Assembly: GCA_001303705.1 (NCBI GenBank)
Contig: LJUI01000026.1
Location: forward strand, 1 to 48,360
DNA: 48,360 nt
From: a candidate division TA06 bacterium SM23_40
GTDB taxonomy: Bacteria; LJUI01; SM1-40
Direction of reading: 5' to 3'
The notes beneath the pieces were generated by a model. That model did no database searches. It saw only the letters and a list, made by a program, of their open reading frames with translations, and was not told where the DNA came from. Positions 1,758 through 42,178 of the stretch are shown one piece after another (within the stretch, counting starts at the first letter, position 1; every line of letters begins with the position of its first letter). A program made the position numbers and the translations under genes.

Positions 1758-2333
1758 GTGGTGCCGCAGCGTGCATTCTTGACTAAGGGCGTGGGCAGGC
1801 ACCGGGAAAAGCTCACGAGCTTCGAGATGGCGCTCCGGAACGCCGCCATCGCCGACTACAACATAGTTCGTGTCTCGAGCATTTTTCCCCCCGGATGCCG
1901 ATTGATCACGCGCGCCGAGGGCCTGGGTCGCCTGACGCCGGGGCAGATCGTCTACGTCGTGCTGAGCGAGAACGCGACAAACGAGCCTCACCGATTGATC
2001 GCGGCATCGATCGGTGTTGCCATACCCAAGGATCCTGCCAACTTCGGCTACCTGTCCGAGCACCATAGCTTCGGCGAGAAGGGGGTGAAGGCAGGGGACT
2101 ACGCTGAAGATCTGGCCGCCAGCATGCTCGCGACTATCCTGGGCGTCGAGTTCGATCCTGACTGGAGCTACGACGCGCGGAAGGAGATATGGAAGATCAG
2201 CGACCAGATCGTGCGCACAACGAACACTACACAGACGGCCATCGGGGATAAGAGCGGACTGTGGACGACGGTGGTGGCCGCTGCCGTCTTTGCTCCGGAA
2301 GATACCGATACTCACGACGAGGGGAACACGTGA
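1758..2333 (+). CDS. Pyruvoyl-dependent arginine decarboxylase
   Basis: This 191-residue protein resembles PvlArgDC, which converts arginine to agmatine with a self-made pyruvoyl cofactor. The processing site is visible as VSSIFPPG, with Ser40-Ser41 as the expected cleavage pair. Cleavage gives a short beta chain and an alpha chain whose N-terminal serine becomes the pyruvoyl group. Further family sequence includes the glycine-rich GQIVYVVLSE segment and the hydrophobic C-terminal helix. Translation starts at one of two tandem GTG codons (1758 or 1761), with AGAGGAGGAG at 1741-1750 as a well-placed ribosome site. The stop overlaps the start of the next gene as GTGA, so the two are translationally coupled. 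The next gene is deoxyhypusine-synthase-like, which points to polyamine synthesis rather than acid resistance. Family assignment is confident. Confidence 0.92.
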   Translation: MVPQRAFLTKGVGRHREKLTSFEMALRNAAIADYNIVRVSSIFPPGCRLITRAEGLGRLTPGQIVYVVLSENATNEPHRLIAASIGVAIPKDPANFGYLSEHHSFGEKGVKAGDYAEDLAASMLATILGVEFDPDWSYDARKEIWKISDQIVRTTNTTQTAIGDKSGLWTTVVAAAVFAPEDTDTHDEGNT

Positions 2334-3373
2334 CAAGACGATTTCTCGACCGACCCGTTGTGCCGCTCGAGGTCGACCCAGACGCAAACGTGGCATCGCT
2401 CCTGCAGCGAATGGGCAGGATCTCGTTTCAGGGGCGGAATCTCTCGAAAGCATTCGCGGTCTGGAAGGAGATGCTCCAGCATCGCAATGTCATCTTCTTG
2501 GGGCTCGCGGGAGCGATGATCCCTGCCGGCATGCGAAAGCTGATGGTCTTCCTCATTGAGCATCGCTTCATCGACTGCCTCGTTGTCACCGGGGCCAATC
2601 TCTTTCACGATATCCATGAGTCCCTTGGGCGGCGCCACTATATAGGCCATCCCGGGCTGCCCGACGAGGAACTGAGAGAGGCGGCAGTCGACAGGATCTA
2701 TGATACGCTCGCCAGCGAAGACGAATTCCGGGCCACTGACTATCAGCTCGCTACGTGGGCCACTCAGCTCGATCTGAGTAGGGCCTGGACGACGAGAGAG
2801 TATCTCTATGAGGTTGGCAGGGTGTTGAGCGAGGGCGGGCACGACCGGTGCATGGTGAGCGAGGCGTATCGTGCAGGTATACCGATCTACTGCCCCGCGA
2901 TCGGGGACTCCTCTATCGGCCTGGCGCTCCTGCGGAGTGAAGCAGGAAAGAGAGTTCCGATCATCTTCGATGTTGTATCGGACGTGGCAGAGACGGGCCG
3001 GATCGTCGAGGGCTCACCGTCTTCCGGAGTGATCTACGTCGGGGGAGGTACCCCGAAGAACTTCATCCAGCAGACCGAGGTGTTGCTTCCGCGTGACCAG
3101 CGGACTAAGGAGGGGCACCGCTATGCCATCCAGATTACGGCCGATGCCCCGTTCTGGGGGGGGCTGAGTGGATGCACCTTCGACGAGGCCAAATCCTGGG
3201 GCAAGATCTCGTCTGATGCGGCGATGGTGACGGTCCGCGCCGACGCCACCGTCGCGTTGCCCATCCTGGTGACCGCGCTCTCGCAGGAGGCCATGGACCT
3301 GGCCCGCGCCCGTCCCAAACCCGGGTTCGAGATGGGAAGGGAGCTCTCAGTCCACTGGGACGAGGGTCAGTGA
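2330..3373 (+). CDS. Deoxyhypusine synthase-like enzyme (possible homospermidine synthase)
   Basis: This 347-residue protein belongs to the deoxyhypusine synthase fold, which moves an aminobutyl group from spermidine via NAD and a lysine imine. The catalytic lysine motif is present as SWGKIS (Lys292). NAD-binding stretches are also seen, such as VIFLGLAGAMIPAGM near residue 60 and VIYVGGGTPKNF around residue 235. Bacteria lack the eukaryotic eIF5A substrate, and bacterial members often act as homospermidine synthases or related aminobutyl/aminopropyl transferases; the product here is inferred only. The start is GTG at 2330, overlapping the upstream decarboxylase stop (GTGA) with a GAGGGG ribosome site. 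Longer upstream reading in the same frame overlaps the decarboxylase and was rejected. No agmatinase gene lies beside it, so the route from agmatine is incomplete within the window. Confidence 0.88.
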   Translation: MTRRFLDRPVVPLEVDPDANVASLLQRMGRISFQGRNLSKAFAVWKEMLQHRNVIFLGLAGAMIPAGMRKLMVFLIEHRFIDCLVVTGANLFHDIHESLGRRHYIGHPGLPDEELREAAVDRIYDTLASEDEFRATDYQLATWATQLDLSRAWTTREYLYEVGRVLSEGGHDRCMVSEAYRAGIPIYCPAIGDSSIGLALLRSEAGKRVPIIFDVVSDVAETGRIVEGSPSSGVIYVGGGTPKNFIQQTEVLLPRDQRTKEGHRYAIQITADAPFWGGLSGCTFDEAKSWGKISSDAAMVTVRADATVALPILVTALSQEAMDLARARPKPGFEMGRELSVHWDEGQ

Positions 3374-13999: not shown

Positions 14000-14029
14000 T
14001 TGACGCGCAGGGTAAATGTGTGATATACT
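14000..14029 (+). promoter_or_regulatory. Promoter of the beta-helix/FG-GAP gene
   Basis: TTGACG (14000-14005) and TATACT (14024-14029) are separated by 18 bases. The expected start near 14036 gives a 50-base leader before ATG 14088. Confidence 0.65.
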
Positions 14030-14087
14030 CGTTCTATCGCAGTGGGGGAGTGTGCGACGTTTCATTTTACCGCGTGAGGAGAGGGCT

Positions 14088-16013
14088 ATGACATTGAGCA
14101 CGAGGAATGTGATGGTGGGACTGGCCGCCGGTCTGGCCGTGCTGGCGCTGTGGGCGTCCGGTATGGGTACGGTCATCCACGTTCCTGGCGACTATCCGAC
14201 GATCCAGCAGGGGATTGATGCCGCAGCCGGCGGTGACACGGTTCTGGTTGGCGACGGGGTCTATACAGGACCAGAGAACAAGAATCTCGATTTCGGCGGA
14301 AAGGCACTCCGTGTGACGTCCGAACTGGGACCTGCGGCAACTGCTATCGATTGTGAGAACGATGGCAGGGGGTTTTACTTCCATACCGGCGAGGACTCCC
14401 TCTCGGTCGTGGAAGGGTTCACCATCAGGAATGGGTACGTAGGTACCCTCGGGGGCGGCATCTACTGCCTCGGCGCATCGCCGTCGATCGTGCGCACTGT
14501 CATCATCGGCTGCCAGTCCGACGCCGGGGGGGCGATCGCCTGCGAGAGTGCATCCCCCCTCATCGAAGGCAGCACGATGAGTGAGAACGACGGCGGCCTG
14601 AATGGCGGGGGGGCGCTCTTCTGCTGGCAGGGCTCGTTTCCGATTGTCTCCAATTCCATTCTCTGGGGGAATATGCCCGACGAGATCGCGGTCGTGAATG
14701 GCAATCCTGCCGTCCGATACAGCGATGTTGCGGGCGGCCGGGCGGGGGTCGGCAACATCGCCTGTGATCCCCTGTTCGTCAATGTGCTGGCCGGCGACTA
14801 CTCGCTGAGCTACGACTCCCCCTGCCTCGATTCGGGCGATCCGCTGGCGGGCGTTCCGGACGGAGGCGGCGACAGGCTCGACATGGGGGCGTTCGAGCAT
14901 CTTATTCCATACAATGATCTGGCACTATCGTTTACCAATACTCCCGATTCGGTGGCCCAGGGATCGCGCGTCTCCTGGGATGTATCGTTCACCAACCCGC
15001 TCTCCATCCCGGTGACAGTAGATGTCTGGTTCGACGTCTCGTCGCAGATCCGCTGCGCGATCATCATGGAGTACAGGGATGTGACGGTTCCCCCGCAGAC
15101 AACCCATAACCGGACACTCAGTCTGCCGGTGCCGAATGCGGCTCCTCTCGGCCAGTACACGATCCACGGTCGGGTAGGCGTGATGGACATGATAGACGGG
15201 GGAGTGTACGACGCGGAGAACTTCATCGTCGAGATCCTTGAGGGGCATGCCCTGAGCTATGTGGAGTCATCGAGCGGCCTCGGCTACCCGCAACTGGAAG
15301 CGGGCAGGACCGAGCTCGAGATGGGAGATGTCGATGGCGACGGCCACCCCGACATCGTCTCCATCGGCGATCACGGGTCTCCCTACATTAACACGAACGA
15401 GCACGGGATCATGGTCTGGTTCGGGGATGGAACAGGCACGTGGTCGGTGTACCAGAACGGGAATTTCGGGTACGGCGGCGTTGCCCTGGGTGATGTGAAC
15501 AACGACGGGCTCATGGATGTCGGCTATGCAATGCATCACAACTACTCGGGCAATGACTTCGGCGATCAATTGATCGAAGTCGCCCTGGGAGACGGAACCG
15601 GGCAGAACTGGCAGCCCTGGGATGACGGCCTGGCGACGAACGGGGAGACCTGGGGGATGTTCGGGACCGACTTCGCGGACGTCGACAATGACGGAGACCT
15701 CGATCTCGTCTCCAACTCGTTCGGTGCCGGCTCCGGCGTTCATGTCTATCTGAATCAGGGTGACGGGACCTGGGTCCAGAGCTTCGGGTTCCTGGAGGGG
15801 AATTCGACTGACGACATCGTCTTCGGCGATGTCAACGGCGACTGCAACGCCGATTTCGCGGCCGCTCACGAATATGGCACGGTCTATCTGGGAGACGGGG
15901 CAGGCAACTACGTCCTCGCCGACGGCAATCTTCCGCCTCCCGGGTGGGTTGGAAGGTTTGGGCCCGACCTGGGCGACGTCAACAACGACGGGGGGGATGA
16001 TCTCTCCTACTGA
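14088..16013 (+). CDS. Secreted right-handed beta-helix plus FG-GAP/VCBS repeat protein (5' part of a frameshifted gene)
   Basis: The first 641 residues begin with a signal peptide (MTLSTRNVMVGLAAGLAVLALWASGMG). Next is a pectin-lyase-like beta-helix, recognised by VIHVPGDYPTIQQGIDAAA and GDTVLVGDGVYTG plus right-handed-helix repeats. A middle Ig-like segment follows (about 270-385). The last part is a series of calcium-type FG-GAP/VCBS repeats (GDVDGDGHPDIV, GDVNNDGLMDVG, ADVDNDGDLDLVS, GDVNGDCNADFA, GDVNNDGGDDLS). These are exported or surface proteins whose ligands are unknown. GTGAGGAGAGGG precedes ATG 14088. The frame stops at 16013 in the middle of a repeat; the remainder continues in the +1 frame. 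Confidence 0.82.
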   Translation: MTLSTRNVMVGLAAGLAVLALWASGMGTVIHVPGDYPTIQQGIDAAAGGDTVLVGDGVYTGPENKNLDFGGKALRVTSELGPAATAIDCENDGRGFYFHTGEDSLSVVEGFTIRNGYVGTLGGGIYCLGASPSIVRTVIIGCQSDAGGAIACESASPLIEGSTMSENDGGLNGGGALFCWQGSFPIVSNSILWGNMPDEIAVVNGNPAVRYSDVAGGRAGVGNIACDPLFVNVLAGDYSLSYDSPCLDSGDPLAGVPDGGGDRLDMGAFEHLIPYNDLALSFTNTPDSVAQGSRVSWDVSFTNPLSIPVTVDVWFDVSSQIRCAIIMEYRDVTVPPQTTHNRTLSLPVPNAAPLGQYTIHGRVGVMDMIDGGVYDAENFIVEILEGHALSYVESSSGLGYPQLEAGRTELEMGDVDGDGHPDIVSIGDHGSPYINTNEHGIMVWFGDGTGTWSVYQNGNFGYGGVALGDVNNDGLMDVGYAMHHNYSGNDFGDQLIEVALGDGTGQNWQPWDDGLATNGETWGMFGTDFADVDNDGDLDLVSNSFGAGSGVHVYLNQGDGTWVQSFGFLEGNSTDDIVFGDVNGDCNADFAAAHEYGTVYLGDGAGNYVLADGNLPPPGWVGRFGPDLGDVNNDGGDDLSY

Positions 16014-20244: not shown

Positions 20245-21207
20245 ATGCATAGAAGTCGCAGGGGGAAGGCAGGCAGGCGGGGAGCTCATTCCCTTCTTTT
20301 GTTATTACCTCTGTTCTTGTTGTTGTCGGGGACGGTGCTCTCGCCGGGATGCCGGTCAAAGATCGAGGAACGCCTCGCCACAGCGCGTACGCTGATTGAC
20401 GAAGAGCGGTACAACGAGGCGATCTTCGAGTTGAGGGAGTGCCTGGCCCAGAGCAAGGGCGACGCACGTCCACCCTTTCTTCTCGGTGTCGTCTATGCCA
20501 GACAGGGCAAGCTTGAGCGCGCTGGCACATTCTTCCGACAGGCACTCGAGATCGATTCGCTGTTGACACCGTCGGTCGTGAACGAATGGGTGCAGCGCGG
20601 TACGGTCTTCGTCGCCAGGGGGCAAAATGATCGCGCAGTCGCTGCGTTCGAACGCGCCCTCGTGCTTGACCCCCACGTCGATCTCGGAGATGGGTTCTGT
20701 GTGCTGGGTGAGCGATACTTCGGCGAACGCCGAATCGAGGAGGCCGCGGGTATGTTCGAGCGAGCGATCGGGAGCGGACTCGATGCGGAGGGAGAGCTCG
20801 ATGCGCGCCTCCGCCTGGCCCAGTGCTACGAGGCTCTGGATGATCTGGAGGCCGCCTTCGCCTGCCTCGATGAGGGCTCGCGTACTATCTCTGATCCGGA
20901 GTTGCTATGGGAGAGAGGGAGAGTCGCCTACGAACTCTCCCAACAGTGCCTGCGGGGAGGTTACTATGAGCGAGTGCGTTCGTTGGCGGGGTCGGTCATC
21001 AAGAGTGGAATGCCCGAGGTTCTTGTCGACGATGCGTACTTTGCTGTCGGCGAGAGCTACTTCCTTCAGGGCGAATACCGGGATGCGATCGCTGCCTACG
21101 AGAAGGTATTGCGGCTAAACCCCATCGGATCGGGGAGTCTTGTCGAGGATGCACGCAGGCGGATCGAGTTAGCGCGCGCCCTCGATCGAGGGAGGAGCGA
21201 GTCGTGA
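20245..21207 (+). CDS. TPR-repeat lipoprotein
   Basis: This 320-residue protein has a hydrophobic leader (LLLLLPLFLLLSGTVL) ending in a lipobox-like SPGC. It is therefore likely a lipoprotein facing the periplasm. After it come tetratricopeptide repeats. Examples are RYNEAIFELRECLAQSKGD, GKLERAGTFFRQALEIDS, NDRAVAAFERALVLDP, RRIEEAAGMFERAIGSG and EYRDAIAAYEKVLRLNP. The repeats imply protein-protein contact. Its stop overlaps the next start (GTGA) and the next product is a BamD-like lipoprotein. A helper role in outer membrane assembly is plausible but inferred. No enzyme motif is present. Confidence 0.85.
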   Translation: MHRSRRGKAGRRGAHSLLLLLPLFLLLSGTVLSPGCRSKIEERLATARTLIDEERYNEAIFELRECLAQSKGDARPPFLLGVVYARQGKLERAGTFFRQALEIDSLLTPSVVNEWVQRGTVFVARGQNDRAVAAFERALVLDPHVDLGDGFCVLGERYFGERRIEEAAGMFERAIGSGLDAEGELDARLRLAQCYEALDDLEAAFACLDEGSRTISDPELLWERGRVAYELSQQCLRGGYYERVRSLAGSVIKSGMPEVLVDDAYFAVGESYFLQGEYRDAIAAYEKVLRLNPIGSGSLVEDARRRIELARALDRGRSES

Positions 21208-22937
21208 GAATCCATTGCAGAGAATTGATGAGAGCGCTCCTTTGCCTCCTGATCGTGGCGGGGTGCTCCAGCCGTCAGCACCTCCGTGTCAGCCTCGATG
21301 CGGAGGACGAATTCGCCCTGGCGAAGAAGGCATTCGACGAGCGGCAGTGGGATCGGGCGGCCGAGGGGTTCAAGAGGCTCATGTTCGACCACCCGGAGAG
21401 CGGCCTCGTCGACGATGCTCAATTCTATCTCGCCGAAACGTATCTGGCCCAGGAGGAATATGAGCTGGCGATAGTGGAGTACCGGCAGTTGTCCCGCAAT
21501 CACCCGCGCAGTGAGTATGCCGACGACGCCGACTTCTCTATCGGTCTTGCCTATTATCGGCGGTCTCCGGCATTCGACCTGGATCAGCAGTTCACCGAGC
21601 AAGCTATCGAAGCTTTCAATGTCTTCCTCGTGCGGCACCCGCGTTCACCTCTGGTCGCCGAGGCGGAGAGCAAAAGAAAGGAGTTGAGGGAACGGCTGGC
21701 GCGGAAAGAGTACGAAAACGGACTTCTGTACCTGCGCCTGGGACACATCGAATCGGCGCAGATCTACTTCGAGATCGTGCGCGATCAGTATCGCGATACG
21801 GAATGGCGCGCACGGGCAGAGAAGAAGCTCCTCGAGATCGCGTCCGACAGCGTCAGTTCGAGTGACCGACCGGCAGCTGGCTGGTCTGAGGTTTTGGATA
21901 TATCAGAGCCGCGCACGAACTCCTACACCTCGCGCAACAACGCTCGCTCAATCGGAGGCGACTGGACCGGCACGGTCCATATCGTCTGGCAAGAGGCGCG
22001 CGAGGCGGGAGATATTGTCCTGTACCGAGAGTGGGATGGGGTGGAGTGGAGTGAGTCTCGGCGCCTGTCGGACGAAGAGGAACGGGCACTCTCTCCTGCT
22101 CTCGCTGTCGACGTCGCGAATTCGGTCCATGTCGTCTGGGAGAGGGACATGGGAGATCGGGATGCGCTCGCCTACAGGATGAGGGGAGCGGGAGGATGGA
22201 GTGAGGTCGAGGTGATCGCCGAGGGAGGGTCGCGTGCATGGTACCCCGCCATCGATGCGGGACTCGATGGCGCCATCCACGTCGTCTGGATGGACGACAG
22301 GTCCGGCAACTTCGAGATCTGGCATCGCCGTCACGATGCCGGGGGCTGGGCAGAGCCGGTCCAGGTATCGCATAGTCCCGGGATCTCGGCCATGCCATCT
22401 GTCGCCGTCGGTCCTGACGGCCGCGTCCATGCGGTCTGGCAGGAGGAGATGGTAGAGGAGGGCGGTGAGTCTGTTCAGTACGCCTCTGGTGACGGCCTTA
22501 ACTGGTCAGAGCCCCTGCGCCTTTCATCCGGGGAGGGGGGGCTACACCCCTCCCTTGCGGTGACCGGCGACGGGACGGTCATCGCCGTGTGGCAAGAGGG
22601 TGAAGGGCCGACTTCGATCGTTCAGTACCGCGCGCTCGCGGGCGGAGCGTGGGGGCCTGTGGTACAGCTCTCCCTCGAAGACGAGACGGCCAGCACCCCG
22701 ACGGTTGCGGCAGGCCGGGAAAGCATCGTCGTCGCGTGGGCGCGCCGGCGTGACGATGACAGGAGCCTTGTCTGGCGATCGAGAGGCGGCGATGAGTGGC
22801 AGGAGCCGATCGTGGCTTCCGAGGGCACCACGCCGACTCATCCCTCGGTCTGGATCTCTCCGGAAGGTCGGGTTCACCTCGCATGGTGCGACGTGGACGG
22901 AGGCACGTGGCGCGTACGATACCGATCGAGGAAGTGA
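21204..22937 (+). CDS. BamD-like lipoprotein fused to a seven-repeat beta-propeller
   Basis: The 577-residue product starts with a lipoprotein signal (LLCLLIVAGCSSR). Residues about 30-220 match BamD, the TPR lipoprotein of the BAM complex: FALAKKAFDERQWDRAAEGF, ADFSIGLAYYRRSPAFDLDQ, then FNVFLVRHPRSPLV and ERLARKEYENGLLYLR. After a short linker, residues about 230-577 hold seven sialidase/BNR-like repeats, each centred on a core such as VHIVWQE, VHVVWER, IHVVWMD, VHAVWQE, VIAVWQE, IVVAWAR and VHLAWCD. This suggests a seven-bladed propeller. GTG 21204 overlaps the upstream stop and has GAGGGAGGAG before it. Canonical BamD ends after the TPRs, so the fusion is unusual; a BamB-like role for the propeller is inference. 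Confidence 0.88.
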   Translation: MRIHCRELMRALLCLLIVAGCSSRQHLRVSLDAEDEFALAKKAFDERQWDRAAEGFKRLMFDHPESGLVDDAQFYLAETYLAQEEYELAIVEYRQLSRNHPRSEYADDADFSIGLAYYRRSPAFDLDQQFTEQAIEAFNVFLVRHPRSPLVAEAESKRKELRERLARKEYENGLLYLRLGHIESAQIYFEIVRDQYRDTEWRARAEKKLLEIASDSVSSSDRPAAGWSEVLDISEPRTNSYTSRNNARSIGGDWTGTVHIVWQEAREAGDIVLYREWDGVEWSESRRLSDEEERALSPALAVDVANSVHVVWERDMGDRDALAYRMRGAGGWSEVEVIAEGGSRAWYPAIDAGLDGAIHVVWMDDRSGNFEIWHRRHDAGGWAEPVQVSHSPGISAMPSVAVGPDGRVHAVWQEEMVEEGGESVQYASGDGLNWSEPLRLSSGEGGLHPSLAVTGDGTVIAVWQEGEGPTSIVQYRALAGGAWGPVVQLSLEDETASTPTVAAGRESIVVAWARRRDDDRSLVWRSRGGDEWQEPIVASEGTTPTHPSVWISPEGRVHLAWCDVDGGTWRVRYRSRK

Positions 22938-22945
22938 GGGCGCCT

Positions 22946-23545
22946 GTGGACAAGAACCCCGGGATCGGTCTCTTCGGCGGAACGTTCGATCCGATCCACA
23001 TTGGCCACCTCATTACCGCCGAGGAGGTGCGCGACCTGTTCGGGCTCGATGAAATCGTCTTCACTCCTTCCAACCGATCTCCCCACAAACCAGATCGCCC
23101 CATGGCCTCCGCTCGTGACCGGTACGAGATGGTGGCCCTCGCCACGAAGAGCAACCCGTACTTCTCGGTAGACGACATAGAGCTGGTTCGCGGCGGCACT
23201 TCCTATACGGTGGATACGGTTCGTGAATTCAGGGAACGGCGTGGGGATGAGGTCTCTCTCCATTTGGTGATAGGAGCAGACCTGATGCTGGACCTCGAAT
23301 CGTGGAAAGATCCCGACCAGCTGCTCGCGCTTGTCACGATCATCGTGATGTCGCGGCCGGGCTATGATCTGAGGCAGGTCCCGGAGCCGTTCCGTGGCCG
23401 GTTCGAGGTAGCCCGGGTGAGCCACATCGACATCTCCTCGACGATGATTCGTCAGCGCGTACTCGAGGGGCGATCGGTCCGCTACCTGGTCCCCGATGCC
23501 GTGGAGGCATACATCAGTGCCAAAGAACTCTACCGCGGCAGATGA
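22946..23545 (+). CDS. nadD: Nicotinate-nucleotide adenylyltransferase
   Basis: This enzyme of about 199 residues makes nicotinate adenine dinucleotide in NAD synthesis. The nucleotidyltransferase signature GLFGGTFDPIHIGHLI is at the N-terminus. It is followed by IVFTPSNRSPHKP, the substrate-binding GGTSYTVDTVREFRER, LVIGADLMLDLESWKDP and the second ATP motif ISSTMIRQRV. GTG 22946 is chosen with GAGGG five bases upstream. Another GTG at 22934 overlaps the previous stop as GTGA and is nearly as good. The 3' end overlaps the polA reading frame, a compact arrangement. Confidence 0.95.
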   Translation: MDKNPGIGLFGGTFDPIHIGHLITAEEVRDLFGLDEIVFTPSNRSPHKPDRPMASARDRYEMVALATKSNPYFSVDDIELVRGGTSYTVDTVREFRERRGDEVSLHLVIGADLMLDLESWKDPDQLLALVTIIVMSRPGYDLRQVPEPFRGRFEVARVSHIDISSTMIRQRVLEGRSVRYLVPDAVEAYISAKELYRGR

Positions 23546-32008: not shown

Positions 32009-32029
32009 GATGCGGTGAGGAAGAGCCCA

Positions 32030-32584
32030 ATGAAATGCGATAACTGTGGAGAACGGGAAGCGACGGTTGAGTACCGAGAGATGCGGGATGGGAAGACAAC
32101 CACCTATCATTTCTGCAAGGACTGCGCCAAAGAGAAGGGGCTCGAGTCGACTCCCCCCAAGACTCAGTACTCAATAAGCGACATACTGGTAAGCATGGTC
32201 GATGGATCCGGGACATCCGAGACAACGATAGAGAGCGAACTGCGGTGTCCCAAGTGTGCGCTCAGCTATGCCGAGTTCGGGCGGGGAGGGAAGCTCGGGT
32301 GTCCCGCGTGCTACACTGCATTTCGCGGGCAACTCGAACCGCTCCTGCGGCGCATTCACGGCGCAACAAGCCACGTGGGTAAAACGGTCAAGGCGGCGAG
32401 CGCAACGAGCAAGACGAAGCGGGAGATACGCCAGCTCGAACGGGCCCTGCAGCAGGCTGTCCAGAGAGAAGCCTTCGAAGATGCAGCGGAGATCCGGGAC
32501 AAGATCCGGACGCTGGAGGCAGGACTCATCGTCCCACAATCGAATACGAAGTCGGAAGTATCGGGAGCATCGGAGGGCGAATGA
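32030..32584 (+). CDS. mcsA: McsA-type activator of protein arginine kinase
   Basis: This 184-residue protein has two zinc-binding parts made by four CxxC pairs (CDNC, CKDC, CPKC, CPAC). A C-terminal UVR domain has a coiled coil (RQLERALQQAVQREAFEDAA and EIRDKIRTLE). McsA binds and activates the McsB kinase and helps deliver substrates to ClpC. The start ATG 32030 follows GAGGAAG and sits 21 bases after lolD. Its last codon overlaps the mcsB start (ATGA). In Firmicutes the repressor gene ctsR usually comes first; here it is missing and lolD takes the place. Confidence 0.93.
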   Translation: MKCDNCGEREATVEYREMRDGKTTTYHFCKDCAKEKGLESTPPKTQYSISDILVSMVDGSGTSETTIESELRCPKCALSYAEFGRGGKLGCPACYTAFRGQLEPLLRRIHGATSHVGKTVKAASATSKTKREIRQLERALQQAVQREAFEDAAEIRDKIRTLEAGLIVPQSNTKSEVSGASEGE

Positions 32585-33636
32585 TGGACCTCGATGGCAT
32601 GGTGGGGCAGGCGCCGAAGTGGCTCGAGGGGTCGGGGCCGACGCCTGAGATCGTACTCTCCTCACGGGTGAGACTGGCCCGGAATCTGGCTGCCTATCCA
32701 TTCGCCCAGCGGGCAAAGGCGAGTCAGCTAGGAGAGATCGTCTCCGAGGTGGAGCGGGCCGCGATGGCGAACGAGCTGTTCGAGGAGGCGCTGGTTGCGG
32801 AGATCAAGGGGCTGTCGGACATCGACAGGCGCTTCCTTCTCGAGCGGCACCTTATCAGCCCGGAGATGGCGACGCAGCGACGAGATGGAGCGCTCATCGT
32901 CGCAGACGGTGAGAGTGTCAGCATAATGATCAATGAGGAGGATCACCTGCGCCTCCAGTCGATTTGCTCCGGCCTGCAGTTGTCTGATGCGTATCGCGCG
33001 ATCGACGGAGTGGATGATGGGCTGGAGGAGACGCTCCAGTATGCATTCCTGGACAAGTGGGGATACCTCACCGCCTGCCCCACCAACACGGGCACGGGCA
33101 TGCGGGCCTCCGTCCTCATTCACCTCCCTGCGCTAGTCCATACAAAGGAGATCGACAAAGCATTGCGTGGGGCAAGTCAGGTCGGTCTCGCGGTCCGGGG
33201 GTTCTATGGAGAGGGCACCGAGGTGAAGGGGAACCTGTTTCAGATATCGAATCAGACTACCCTTGGCCGGAGTGAGGAGGACAGCATCGAGGCCCTCGAC
33301 CGCGTGACGCGCCAGATCATCGACTACGAGAAGAGACAGCGGGAGGTGCTCATACAGAGTGCACCCCACCAGGTCGAAGATAAGATCTGGAGGGCGTACG
33401 GCATTCTGACGAATGCGCGAATCCTCAGCTCCGATGAGGTGATGTCGATCTCATCCGCAGTGCGGCTGGGGATCGGTCTGGGATTGATCAACACGCTTCC
33501 GCTTACTGTATTGAACGAGCTCGTCATTTTCACTCAGCCAGCTCATCTTCAGCGGTACTACGGGGCCGAAATGGAGGCCTCGGAGCGTGACACAAAACGA
33601 GCAGAGTTCGTCCGGGAGAGCGTCATGGGGCGCTGA
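32581..33636 (+). CDS. mcsB: Protein arginine kinase McsB
   Basis: The 351-residue protein is a bacterial phosphagen-kinase relative that phosphorylates arginines on proteins and so marks them for ClpCP. Catalytic-domain features are IVLSSRVRLARNLAAYPF, the LTACPTNTGTGMRASVLIHL core with the active-site cysteine, and VRGFYGEGTEVKGNLFQISN. The C-terminal allosteric phosphoarginine motif RDxxRA is present as RDTKRA (336-341). A start at ATG 32581 overlaps mcsA by four bases. The key regions appear intact, so activity is expected. It is followed by clpC after 125 bases. Confidence 0.95.
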   Translation: MMDLDGMVGQAPKWLEGSGPTPEIVLSSRVRLARNLAAYPFAQRAKASQLGEIVSEVERAAMANELFEEALVAEIKGLSDIDRRFLLERHLISPEMATQRRDGALIVADGESVSIMINEEDHLRLQSICSGLQLSDAYRAIDGVDDGLEETLQYAFLDKWGYLTACPTNTGTGMRASVLIHLPALVHTKEIDKALRGASQVGLAVRGFYGEGTEVKGNLFQISNQTTLGRSEEDSIEALDRVTRQIIDYEKRQREVLIQSAPHQVEDKIWRAYGILTNARILSSDEVMSISSAVRLGIGLGLINTLPLTVLNELVIFTQPAHLQRYYGAEMEASERDTKRAEFVRESVMGR

Positions 33637-33761
33637 CCTGCCGGACGATTTTCTCCTGGTTCCGAAAAGAGAGGGTCGCTGTGCGAGGACGCGTATCGAG
33701 GAGCCGCCCACGAGGAGCGGCGCCGAGGACGTCGCGAGACCCGCTACCCGGAGGACGATAG

Positions 33762-36254
33762 ATGCAAGACAGATTTACTGAGCGCGTGAAGAGAGTGATG
33801 TATCTCGCCCGAGAAGAAGCCGCGAGGCTGCAGCACGACTATATCGGGACCGAGCATCTCTTGTTAGGGCTGATCAGGGAGGGGGAGGGTGTTGCGGCGT
33901 TGGTGTTGATGAACCTGGGCCTCGATCTCGAGACCCTTCGGCAGGCGGTCGAGGACGTCGCTCCCGCCGGCGGTGGTACGCTGACGATCAGCGAGATCCC
34001 GTTGAATCCGAACGCCAAGAGGTCGCTCGAGCTCGCCGTCGAGGAGGCACGCTCCCTGGGGCATAGCTACATCGGGACCGAGCATCTCCTTCTCGGACTT
34101 CTCAAAGAGGGCGAGGGCGTCGCGTCGATGGTTCTCAAGAAACTGGGGGTGAGCCTCGAACAGGTCAAGGAGGAGACGGTTAACCTCCTGGGTGGAGCGA
34201 TGAAGGAGTTTCATCCCCATCCTCAGCCGCAGCAGCTGGCCGGCAAGGAGAAGTCGAAGACCGCGGCGCTCGACTACTTCTGTCGGGATCTGACGCAACT
34301 GGCGATGGAAGACAAGTTGGATCCGATTATCGGCCGGGAGCAGGAAATAGAGCGGGTCGTCCAGGTTCTGAGCCGCAGGAAGAAGAACAATCCTGTCCTT
34401 ATTGGAGAGCCGGGTGTGGGGAAGACAGCCATCGTCGAGGGTCTCGCCCAGCGCATCGTCGAGGGCAACGTGCCGGAGGTCCTCAAGGAGAAGCGGGTCA
34501 TGACGCTCGATATGGCGGCCGTCGTTGCCGGAACGAAGTATCGCGGTCAGTTCGAGGAAAGACTGAAGGCGGTGCTCAACGAGATCAGGCAGTCGGACGA
34601 GATCGTTCTGTTCATCGACGAGCTCCACACGATCGTCGGTGCGGGCGCGGCAGAGGGGGCGATCGATGCCTCTAACATGCTGAAGCCGTCTCTCGCACGT
34701 GGCGAACTGCAGTGCATAGGCGCAACGACTCTCGAGGAGTATCGCAAACACATCGAAAAGGACGGCGCGCTCGAGCGCCGCTTCCAGACGATCATGGTGG
34801 ATCCTCCGTCTGTTGAGGAGACCGTTGACATCCTGAAGGGGCTGCGTGACAGGTACGAGGATCATCATCGGGTGCGCTACTCGGACGAGGCGCTCGAGGA
34901 GTCGGCACGTCTCTCTGATCGATACATCTCCGATCGGTTCCTGCCCGACAAGGCGATTGATGTCATCGACGAGGCAGGATCGCGCGTGAAACTCTCGGCC
35001 ATGACGACGCCCCCCGAGCTCGTCGGGCTGGAGCACGAGCTCGAAGACGTCGTGAAAGAGAAGCGCCTCGCTATCGAGAGGCAGGAGTTCGAGCGTGCTG
35101 CGGCGCTGCGGGATCGCCAGAAGAAGATCAACCGGGAGCTGAAGCACCTGCGCAAGGAGTGGACCGAGAAGCGGATGGAGGCGAGACACGAAGTCAGTGC
35201 TGAGGACATTGCCTTCATAATCTCGCGCTGGACGGGGATCCCGATTCTCAGGCTAGAGGAACGCGAATCGACGCGGCTGTTGAAGATGGAGGCCGAGCTG
35301 CGCAGGCGGATCGTCGGCCAGGATGAGGCACTTCAGGCGATCTCCCGTGCGATCCGCCGAACGCGGGCGGGATTGAAGGATCCGCGCCGACCGATCGGTT
35401 CGTTTCTCTTCCTCGGACCGACCGGTGTGGGGAAGACCGCTCTGGCGCAGGCCCTCGCCGTCTTCCTGTTCGAGGACGAGAGCGCACTCGTGAGAGTCGA
35501 TATGTCGGAATACATGGAGAAGTTTGCCGTCTCGCGTCTCATCGGGGCGCCCCCGGGGTATGTGGGGTATGAAGAGGGAGGCCAGCTGACTGAGAAGGTG
35601 AGACGGAAGCCGTACTCCGTCGTCCTCCTCGACGAGATCGAGAAAGCCCATCCCGATGTCTTCAACCTCCTTCTCCAGATATTCGAGGACGGCCACCTGA
35701 CCGATAGCTTCGGCCGCCGGGTCAACTTCAAGAACACCGTGCTGATCATGACCTCGAACATCGGGGCGAGGGAGATCAAGAAGGGACAGAGCCTCGGATT
35801 CAGGAAGACCGATCCGGCCCAAACCTACGAGGCGATGAAGGATACTCTGACGACCGAGCTCAAGAAAGTATTCAATCCCGAATTCCTCAACCGGGTGGAC
35901 GAGACCGTCATCTTCCGGGCGCTCGGTAAGGAGGAAATGGCCAAGATCGTCGAGATCATCCTCGACGATGTGCGGTCTCGACTGGCAGAAAAGAAGATGA
36001 AGCTGGTCCTCACTCCAGAGGCTCAGGAGCTCCTGGTGAATGAGGGGTTCGATCCCACGTTTGGGGCCCGGCCTCTGAAGCGCGCGATCCAGCGGCTCAT
36101 CGAGGATCCTCTGTCGGAAGAGCTACTCCGCGGCAGATTCACTGAAGGGTGTACCATCAAAGTTGAGCGTTGCGAGGACCGGCTTGCGTTTGTCGAGGAT
36201 CGACCGATGGCGATCAGTGGGACGACGTCCTCCAACGGTTTGCCTCTATTCTAG
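33762..36254 (+). CDS. clpC: ClpC-type AAA+ unfoldase
   Basis: The 830-residue protein is the unfoldase partner of ClpP. Residues 1-145 are a double Clp N-domain with two GTEH motifs (Glu31 and Glu107). These are the acidic residues that bind phosphoarginine in studied ClpC. D1 has Walker A GEPGVGKT and Walker B LFIDELH. A medium-length M-domain has a coiled coil including a UVR-like [21 protein letters not shown]2 has [12 protein letters not shown] and [16 protein letters not shown]. The ClpP-docking loop [10 protein letters not shown] keeps LGF. Start ATG 33762 follows GGAGG. It belongs with mcsA and mcsB as a complete phosphoarginine degradation module without ctsR; clpP is not in the window. 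Confidence 0.96.
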
Positions 36255-36360: not shown

Positions 36361-36479
36361 CCCATGTAGGATTCTGTCTCACGAGGGACGCAAGTTTTTT
36401 GCCTCAGGGATGTTCTGCCCTTTGGAAACGAGGGCACGACATTGGTGTCGGCAACCACATTCGGCGCTGCGAGGTGAGG

Positions 36480-38744
36480 ATGATGCGACGAGGTTACTGC
36501 TCTCTGGCCGCTCTCCTCTGTGTGGTCTGCCTCCTCGGGGCCTACGGGTCGCATGCACAAGAACTGGCTGCGGTGATCACGGCCGTCGAGGTGAGCGGGA
36601 ACCAACGGTTCGATACAGGTACAGTTCTATCCAACTTCGGCCTCGAGGTTGGCGATCGAGTCGATCAGGTCGCGATAGCGGAGGGGATCCGTCGGCTCTA
36701 CTCTCTCAGAGTCTTCTCGGATGTGGAGGTCGAGGCAGAGCCGGAGCCTGAGCGGGGTGGAGTGCGGCTGATAATCATCGTACTTGAACACCCTACGCTC
36801 GCGCAGTTGGAGTTGAGGGGCAATCGCGCTGTCTCATCGGGTGACATCGAGAAGGAGTTGATACCGCGGACCGGGCAGACGATCTCTCCGCAGACGGTCC
36901 TCCGCTGGAAGCGCCTTGTCCTCAAGCTGTACGAGGAGAAGGGCTATCTCCTGACGACGGTGACCGAAGAGGTCGGTCTTCCAGATGACAGGGGTGGGGT
37001 GCACGTCACCCTGAACATCGATGAGGGGAGGAAGGTCAAGATCCGTGACATCGACATCAAAGGTAACGAGGTATTCTCGGATGAAGCGATCGAACGGAAC
37101 CTGACGAACCGAGAGAAAGAGTGGTACCGGTCCGGCTCCTTCAAGCGTGAGGAATTGGATGAGGATCTGGACAAGATCGTCGCCCTGTATCGGAAACATG
37201 GGTACGTGGACTGCAAGGTTGCGGAGCACCGTTTCCGCTACGATGACCAGAGGGAATGGGTGACCATCACCATTGTTGTCGACGAGGGGCAGCAGTATCG
37301 GGTCGGGAGTATCGAGTGGGTGGGGAATGAGGCGCTGGCCGATGACGTGCTCCGGTCGGCGCTCAAGATCGGTACCGGTGACATCTACAATGTCGAGAAG
37401 GTCAACGAGACGCTCGGCTCACTGTACGCCGCATATACGGAAGAGGGCTACCTGTATGTGGGCATCGATCAGGAGGAGTCGACGCAGGGAGATGCGATCG
37501 ATATCTTCTACCGGATCAGAGAGGGACGTCCGGCCCGCATTCAGAAGTTGGTGATCGCGGGGAACAGCCGCACGAAGGAGAAGGTGATCCGTCGCGAGCT
37601 CGTCGCCCTCCCCGGGGAGATATTCCGCCGATCATCGGTCATCCGTAGCCAACAGAAGGTCATGAACCTCGGGTTCTTCGAGAATGTGATGCTGGATTAT
37701 CGAACTGCCAACGAGGAAGGTGATGTGGATCTCATCTTCAAAGTCGAGGAGAAGCAGACCGGTCACCTGGGTGGGGGGTTCGCCTACAGCGAGATCGATG
37801 CGCTCACATGGTATCTCGAGCTCTCTGAGCCGAACCTGTTCGGCCGCGCACGGAGGGGCTATCTGCGAACCGAATGGGGGAAGCGAAGACAGAACTACGA
37901 GTTCGGGTTCACGGAGCCATGGTTGTTCGACCGGCCGATCTCAGCCGGCTTCGACATCTTCCACATGACTCGATACCGCGACTACTACGATCAGAAGCGG
38001 ACCGGCGGCGCGGTGCGGGCATCTGCCCCCATCCCGCGCCTCGACTACACCCGGATCTATGGAACGTATCGTCTCGAGGATGTCGAGATCGTACTCGGTC
38101 CGGACATCGATAAGAGCGATCTCTCTGCATGGTTTGTGGAGGGGAAGCGGCGAACGAGCAGCGCCATCTTCTCCCTGATTCGCGACAGCCGGGACTATGT
38201 CTTCAATGCGACCCGCGGCTCTCGTCTCGCCTACACCATCGAGGTGGCAGGAGGTCCGCTCGGCGGTCAGGTCGACTTCCACAAACATGTGCTCGATGCA
38301 AGGTCGTACTGGCCGACCTTCTGGAAGTTCGTCCTCATGCTCCGCGGGAGGTTCGGGATCGTCGACGGGTACTCGACGGCATCGAGCGTTCCGAGCTATG
38401 AGTACTTCTATCTCGGCGGGGCCGGCGACTACGGCATCCGCGGCTACCCTGATCCCACGTTCCATCCGGCGCGGGACATCGCGGGGCGGACGATGATGAC
38501 GTTCACGGCGGAGCACAAGTTCCTGCTGACGGACAAGGTGTACTGGCTGCTCTTCGCCGACGCGGGCAATGCCTGGATGAATGTGCGCGACATCGGCAGC
38601 GAGGACTGGAAACGGGGGGCGGGAACGGGAATCAGGATAGAGATCCCGATGCTGGGAGTCCTCGGTTTCGACTTCGGGTACGGATTTGACAGAAAGCCGA
38701 AGCCGCGGTGGGAGTTCCACGTGCAGATGGGTGGGGCGGATTGA
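36480..38744 (+). CDS. bamA: Outer membrane protein assembly factor BamA
   Basis: The 754-residue Omp85 protein inserts beta-barrels into the outer membrane. A signal peptide (MMRRGYCSLAALLCVVCLLG) precedes about five POTRA domains (residues about 30-410). Examples are ITAVEVSGNQRFDTGTVLSN, LAQLELRGNRAVSSGDIEKE, VKIRDIDIKGNEVFSDEAIE and IQKLVIAGNSRTKEKVIR. The C-terminal barrel includes the conserved GAGDYGIRGYPD (VRGF-type) loop and ends KPRWEFHVQMGGAD. The last residue is not the usual phenylalanine. The start is ATG 36480 or 36483 (ATGATG) with GAGGTGAGG just upstream; an earlier in-frame ATG at 36399 has no signal-like sequence. It opens the envelope gene cluster. Confidence 0.95.
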   Translation: MMRRGYCSLAALLCVVCLLGAYGSHAQELAAVITAVEVSGNQRFDTGTVLSNFGLEVGDRVDQVAIAEGIRRLYSLRVFSDVEVEAEPEPERGGVRLIIIVLEHPTLAQLELRGNRAVSSGDIEKELIPRTGQTISPQTVLRWKRLVLKLYEEKGYLLTTVTEEVGLPDDRGGVHVTLNIDEGRKVKIRDIDIKGNEVFSDEAIERNLTNREKEWYRSGSFKREELDEDLDKIVALYRKHGYVDCKVAEHRFRYDDQREWVTITIVVDEGQQYRVGSIEWVGNEALADDVLRSALKIGTGDIYNVEKVNETLGSLYAAYTEEGYLYVGIDQEESTQGDAIDIFYRIREGRPARIQKLVIAGNSRTKEKVIRRELVALPGEIFRRSSVIRSQQKVMNLGFFENVMLDYRTANEEGDVDLIFKVEEKQTGHLGGGFAYSEIDALTWYLELSEPNLFGRARRGYLRTEWGKRRQNYEFGFTEPWLFDRPISAGFDIFHMTRYRDYYDQKRTGGAVRASAPIPRLDYTRIYGTYRLEDVEIVLGPDIDKSDLSAWFVEGKRRTSSAIFSLIRDSRDYVFNATRGSRLAYTIEVAGGPLGGQVDFHKHVLDARSYWPTFWKFVLMLRGRFGIVDGYSTASSVPSYEYFYLGGAGDYGIRGYPDPTFHPARDIAGRTMMTFTAEHKFLLTDKVYWLLFADAGNAWMNVRDIGSEDWKRGAGTGIRIEIPMLGVLGFDFGYGFDRKPKPRWEFHVQMGGAD

Positions 38745-39851: not shown

Positions 39852-40894
39852 ATGAAAGTGAATCTTGGGGAGATAGCGCAGCTCACCGAGGGAACGCTGA
39901 TCGGTGATGCGTCCGTCCAGATCACCGGTGTCGCCGGCATAGAGGACGCGGGCGAGGGAGACATCACATTCATCGGTCATCCGCGCTACGCGTCCTTTCT
40001 CCATACCACAGGTGCTTCTGCGATCATCGTTGCGCGCGAGATCCCCGATGCGCCGAAGCCGCTCATTGTCGTGGCACAGCCATATCTCGCGCTGGCGCAA
40101 GTTCTCGAGGTGTTCGCCGGGTCCAGGCCCGAGCCGAAGGGGGTCGTCGATTCCACAGCGGTCGTCTCTCAGAGCGCAACGCTCGGCGCGGATGTCTCGG
40201 TCGGAGCCTATGCGGTGATCGAGGACGGCGCCAGCATCGGCTCCAACACCATCATCTCTCCCCTTGTATACGTCGGCAGAGGAGCGAGCATCGGAGACGA
40301 CTGCGTTATTCATCCGATGACGGTCGTGCGAGAGGGCGTAACGCTCGGCGACCGTGTTATCGTACATGCTCATGCCGTGATCGGGAGCGACGGTTTCGGG
40401 TACGCTCAAGAGGGGCAGTCCCACCGGAGGATCCCCCAGATAGGAACGGTCATCGTCGAGGATGATGTGGACGTCGGGGCCGGAGTGACGATCGACCGGG
40501 CCACGCTGGGGGCAACGAGGATCGGGCGCGGCACAAAGATAGACAATCTCGTGCAGATCGGGCACAATGTGACTGTGGGCGAGGAATCGATCATCGTCGC
40601 CCAGGTCGGCATCTCAGGGAGCACTGAGATAGGGAAGCGCGTCATTCTCGCCGGGCAAGCGGGCCTGGTGGGGCATATCAAGGTAGGTGATGGGGCGGTC
40701 GTCGGGGCGCAGGCGGGTGTGACGAAATCTGTGGCGCCGGGGGAGGTCGTCTCCGGATACCCCGCTCGTTCTCACCAGGCGGCGTCGAGAGTGTACGCAT
40801 GCATGCAGCACCTCCCAGATCTGCTCAAGCGTGTCAAGCGGCTGGAGCAGAGGCTGGGAGAGTTGGAGAGCGAGCACCAGGGCGAGAAGGGCTG

Positions 40895-40895
<1 letters not shown>
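39852..40895 (+). CDS. lpxD: UDP-3-O-acylglucosamine N-acyltransferase
   Basis: The 347-residue acyltransferase adds the amide-linked fatty acid in the third step of lipid A synthesis. The N-terminal uridine-binding domain has [21 protein letters not shown] left-handed beta-helix of hexapeptide repeats follows ([20 protein letters not shown]). The catalytic histidine region is [17 protein letters not shown]. The end has a coiled-coil helix ([20 protein letters not shown]). The start is ATG 39852, nine bases after the ompH-like stop. The stop overlaps the next start as TGATG. Confidence 0.96.

Positions 40896-42178
<1,283 letters not shown>

Follow-up and report, generated by a model that had tools for sequence, protein, structure and literature searches.

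Fusion of the Outer Membrane Assembly Lipoprotein BamD to a Predicted Seven-Bladed Beta-Propeller at the bamD Locus

Most LPS bacteria assemble their outer membrane with a conserved core of BamA and BamD, the latter normally a stand-alone lipoprotein. The window analyzed here, a stretch of 48,360 nucleotides, encodes instead a BamD orthologue that continues in frame into a beta-propeller predicted to be complete and seven-bladed. Our preferred reading, to which we assign a probability of about 0.6, is that this fusion is the true and only BamD of the genome and that its added C-terminal propeller serves as a docking platform near POTRA5. The features discussed are listed in Table 1.

Table 1. 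Coordinates and basis of assignment of the fusion gene, its parts and the relevant neighbors (positions in the window).
Feature	Coordinates	Strand	Basis or remarks
BamD-propeller lipoprotein, 577 aa	21204..22937	+	GTG start, TGA stop
Signal peptide and lipobox LLIVAGC, lipidated Cys21	21204..21266	+	Direct reading; alignments
BamD TPR domain, TPR1-4 and first helix of TPR5, residues 33-219	21300..21860	+	TIGR03302; AF2 helices; alignment with stand-alone BamDs
Short linker or junction, about residues 214-225, SDSVSSSDRPAA	21843..21878	+	Alignments; low pLDDT from residue 220
Predicted seven-bladed beta-propeller, BNR/sialidase-like superfamily, residues 224-577	21873..22934	+	Repeats; AF2; VIA; homologous secreted propellers
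Upstream TPR protein, 320 aa	20245..21207	+	TGA stop overlaps the GTG start of the fusion as GTGA
nadD, conserved 3' neighbor	22934..23545	+	TIGR00482, E 7e-55; synteny; possible GTG start overlaps the TGA of the fusion
BamA, five POTRA domains	36399..38744	+	TIGR03303, 480 bits; five POTRA stretches (scored on 36480-38744)

The initial annotation described one lipoprotein made up of a BamD-type TPR part and a seven-repeat propeller, and the frame, lipobox, profiles and models all bear this out. The gene is a single open frame of 577 codons with no interruption, and a Shine-Dalgarno-like sequence, GGGAGGAG, precedes its start codon. Cys21 of the lipobox is invariant in two alignments with other BamDs. 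The BamD profile TIGR03302 matches residues 8-214 at 134.7 bits (cut-off 81.4) and Pfam YfiO matches at 66.6 bits (3e-18; cut-off 25). The best solved structure by sequence is Rhodothermus marinus BamD (3qky, 1e-26), which also ranks first in a Foldseek search with the AF2 model (rmsd 1.8 Å over 205 columns), with other BamDs next; the pLDDT of this model exceeds 90 for most of residues 31-200. The first half of the protein is thus a true BamD.

Among the named genomes, the closest BamDs are found in MAGs called Gemmatimonadota, KSB1 and Zixibacteria. These stand-alone proteins, together with 3qky, share with the fusion the lipobox, TPR1-4, the LDQxxT and LARK motifs and a place before nadD, at about 33-45% identity. 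They differ from it in that they measure about 220-320 aa, nearly all finish with a full TPR5, and none was seen with an extra folded domain of this kind. In alignment with stand-alone BamDs of other phyla the motifs of TPR1-4 are kept in the fusion, but past the first helix of TPR5 the chain departs from the BamD pattern and the end of TPR5 is missing; the other two frames at the junction contain no recognizable remnant of it. Loss of this segment appears tolerable, since the BamD of a Chlorobiota MAG (L064, 2974-3642) is naturally short and stops past the first helix of TPR5, at nearly the same point. Where E. coli BamD has its contact residue R197, the fusion has a tyrosine, as do nearly all aligned relatives, and the position is therefore uninformative about the fusion itself.

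The propeller consists of seven repeats of 49-51 aa each, with inner-strand motifs ending in a tryptophan at residues 258, 308, 358, 408, 459, 508 and 557. The outer-strand tryptophan of the first blade lies at 226-227, so that the ring would close N- to C-terminally. Pfam BNR_2 (28-31 bits against 31.4) and BNR_4 (23-25 bits against 27.3) fall just under their gathering scores, and the Asp box of GH33 sialidases (SxDxGxTW) is absent from the propeller in both its strict and its relaxed form. AF2 modeled the propeller poorly when the full protein was supplied with BamD-only alignment rows (pTM 0.46), and its placement relative to the TPR domain is not confident; for this reason the domain was modeled separately, from its own sequence and without an alignment, which gave a pTM of 0.77 and a mean pLDDT of 73.5. 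Structural comparison with VIA-align matched this model, from one end to the other, with seven-bladed propellers of known structure at Z scores of 24-33: the C-terminal propeller of CylK at 33 (rmsd 3.1-3.9 Å over about 340 residues, 339-346), the PLL/PHL lectins at 27-28 and GH145 enzymes at about 26. These proteins and the PL25 enzymes have the same seven-bladed fold, but only 9-18% sequence identity to the fused propeller.

Fold similarity raises the possibility of a glycan ligand, peptidoglycan or some other glycan of the periplasm, through which the propeller would attach BAM to the cell wall or sense wall maturity. Many of the nearest folds are glycan binders or glycan-active propellers, including the PLL/PHL and CV39L lectins, GH145 and PL24/PL25, and BAM is known to touch mature peptidoglycan and to be inhibited by it, while Neisseria BAM carries RmpM (PMC13067283). 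However, a common fold is no proof of function, the top Z score belongs to CylK, which is a non-glycan enzyme, and identity to the lectins is 14-18%. A role as a glycan anchor is rather unlikely.

What is the genomic setting of this gene? In about 30 loci of very different phyla nadD lies directly 3' of bamD, with polA next in several, and the order in the window is fusion-nadD-polA-coaE. The fusion therefore sits at the orthologous bamD locus, with the propeller between the BamD part and nadD. As the propeller separates bamD from its usual neighbor, one false assembly join is insufficient to account for it. The assembly is a draft (2.88 Mb, about 90% complete, 189 contigs), which might suggest that an assembly or frame artefact had joined two genes, but the flanking of the propeller by the BamD half upstream and nadD downstream means that two false joins would be needed. 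The junction also lies within one open frame and GC3 is even across it, at 0.64-0.82 over the full length of the gene, so that the local frame error considered in the initial annotation finds no support. We regard an artefact as very improbable.

Immediately upstream, a TPR lipoprotein made by coupled translation had been proposed. The TPR gene and the overlap of its stop codon with the start of the fusion were found as described, but its status as a lipoprotein is less sure because its lipobox, VLSPGC, is non-canonical. No full-length counterpart of this gene was found beside bamD in relatives, where similarity was local and at the level of TPRs, and upstream ORFs tested in three relatives gave no TPR match.

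In addition to BamA, the window carries OmpH/Skp, LpxD, LpxC-FabZ, LpxA, LpxB, KdtA and LolCE/LolD, the gene set of an LPS-bearing diderm. Several other genes of the window deserve mention in their own right. At 40799-42178, LpxC and a dehydratase domain of FabA/FabZ-like type form one fusion protein (Pfam LpxC and FabA), an arrangement known from Bacteroidota. A UVR-motif protein (McsA-like), the protein-arginine kinase McsB and a ClpB/ClpC-type ATPase are encoded consecutively at 32015-36254 in this LPS-bearing diderm; such a row is usually a Firmicute stress operon. The gene at 2261-3373 encodes, in a bacterium, a member of the deoxyhypusine synthase family (Pfam DS, 307 bits). The product of 14016-16013, 665 aa long, has FG-GAP repeats, which belong to another type of propeller, and no NCBIfam match.

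The initial annotation also raised the question of how widely the fusion occurs. It was surveyed in 386 genomes taken domain-wide, in the phyla to which several of the closest BamDs belong (82, 20, 4, 2 and 1 genomes) and in named GTDB genomes. Among the matches listed, about 200 BamDs in about 480 genomes, there was no second BamD-propeller fusion. The genome of the fusion is the sole member of its phylum in this set, and relatives outside it may therefore commonly have the fusion as well. Outside this genome only two BamD frames reach at least 540 aa (G099, 601 aa; G085, 1163 aa), and in both the extra length is upstream frame with no propeller; the same is true of long frames in G194 (534 aa), G120 (512 aa), G117 (497 aa) and G172 (462 aa). 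One further long match (L069) is a 1011-aa multi-TPR protein and no fusion. The 17 loci from the named GTDB genomes, obtained with a two-sequence alignment, were stand-alone BamDs along with some multi-TPR proteins and partial hits, and included no fusion. A different C-terminal addition is present in L027 (G048:C2:165605-166177), whose BamD has a low-complexity extension of roughly 300 aa rich in Ala, Pro and Gly. The open-access papers searched do not describe any fusion of BamD to a propeller. For a conserved core lipoprotein, a fusion without precedent in the survey or in the open-access literature searched is moderately surprising.

Where did the propeller come from? Its closest relatives are secreted propellers in distant genomes (up to 35% identity). 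BNR-like propellers are common in the same genome, but they are more sialidase-like and are not its closest relatives. Secreted seven-bladed propellers of five genomes (G134, G099, G129, G267, and G076) share its repeat and blade-1 motif and are 24-35% identical to it across all or most of the domain; they differ in having their own signal peptide, in some cases a FlgD/Por sorting tail (as in G267), and no joined TPRs. The mature chains of the G129 and G267 proteins (QGWTADSNLT... and QQWSPAVNLM...) start where the fused propeller does (AGWSEVLDIS...), and the blade-1 motif NNAR/NNS/NQAR is common to all three. It follows that BamD received the domain in its entirety, but without the export signal. 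Viral contigs contained no match for the propeller or for the whole fusion protein.

These relationships bear on the idea that the fusion is accidental, recent and idle, an adjacent propeller gene having lost its start and become part of bamD without contributing to BAM. Its occurrence in a single genome, where BNR-like propellers are otherwise common, would be in keeping with such an origin. On the other hand, the propeller is intact, with all seven repeats, a closed ring and a clean frame, and its repeats have diverged strongly from each other and from their relatives, which fits long retention better than a fresh join. An idle fusion is thus distinctly unlikely.

The initial annotation put forward a further possibility, that the protein is a compact BamB+BamD module. 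The propeller would then do the work of BamB: stabilizing POTRA2/3, receiving SurA and assembling BAM complexes into precincts. The presence of a standard BamD and BamB as separate proteins would speak against this, and neither was found above cut-off in the assembly, which is about 90% complete: the fusion is the only single-domain match above the BamD cut-off, the remaining matches being multi-TPR proteins, and the best BamB match scores 26.6 bits where 285 are needed. BamE is likewise below cut-off (best match 15.2 bits). A propeller fused to BamD would be reminiscent of E. coli, where a periplasmic ring is formed below the barrel by the meeting of BamD with BamB (PMC13067283). However, BamB, BamC and BamE arose within Proteobacteria, and elsewhere BAM consists of BamA and BamD with lineage-specific additions (PMC3359395; PMC13067283). 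Absence of BamB is therefore the rule outside Proteobacteria, where no replacement for it is known, and its absence here is no sign that it has been replaced. BamB is eight-bladed and carries the Trp-docking motif AX[DN]XXTG[DEK]XXW (PMC3506653), whereas the fused propeller has seven blades, the motif does not occur in the fusion protein, and NCBIfam scans of the whole protein and of the propeller alone gave no match to TIGR03300 (BamB). The propeller is moreover joined to the C-terminal end of BamD, away from the site of BamB on POTRA2/3. The proposal of a compact module is not upheld, and equivalence to BamB, at most an analogy, is improbable; as the two propellers differ in their sequence family, in how many blades they have and in the side on which they attach, it is the weakest form that a functional reading could take.

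In the E. coli complex the C-terminal repeats of BamD face POTRA5. The source on which this orientation also rests has BamD contacting POTRA5 through TPR3/4 and BamB sitting on POTRA2/3 (PMC13067283). In the fusion, a secreted-type propeller, predicted to be seven-bladed, has been joined in frame behind TPR4 and the first helix of TPR5 and ahead of nadD, where it takes the place of the C-terminal end of TPR5. Under the docking-platform reading, the protein would be exported, sorted by the Lol system and anchored through Cys21 in the inner leaflet of the outer membrane. Since TPR3/4 are the repeats that bind POTRA5, TPR1-4 would be expected to do the usual work of BamD with BamA, including the handling of substrate signals. 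The propeller, held beside POTRA5 in the periplasm, could then act as a docking platform that never leaves BamD, for example for a chaperone or client, a neighboring BAM complex or a cell-wall glycan; fold and position suggest this role. More tentatively, a whole unsampled phylum may build its outer membrane with an essential BamD that is permanently fused to a recruited propeller, a BamB-like periplasmic hub invented independently by gene fusion and coupled to substrate delivery or to the cell wall.

The presence of a propeller in the C-terminal end of BamD suggests that the end of TPR5 is dispensable, and that BAM can gain accessory functions by fusion instead of through a new subunit. With the fusion, the contribution of a propeller on the POTRA5 side of BAM also becomes cleanly testable in one gene, whereas it is hard to read from the redundant lipoproteins of E. 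coli.

How does this protein compare with known BAM components? Flavobacterium johnsoniae BamP is a separate protein whose three-helix C-terminal domain lies between POTRA1 and BamD (PMC12611786). It is an additional periplasmic element in contact with BamD and with the POTRA domains of BamA, as the fused propeller may be, but it is a separate polypeptide and no propeller is mentioned (PMC12611786). BamB (YfgL) resembles the fused domain as a beta-propeller joined to BAM, in the fusion presumably by a covalent link, but differs in every other respect considered: it has eight blades, is PQQ-dehydrogenase-like with Trp-docking motifs, is a separate lipoprotein on POTRA2/3 and is proteobacterial. 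Comparable additions to BAM are made elsewhere by separate accessory subunits such as BamB, BamC/E, BamP or RmpM, whereas here the addition is part of BamD itself.
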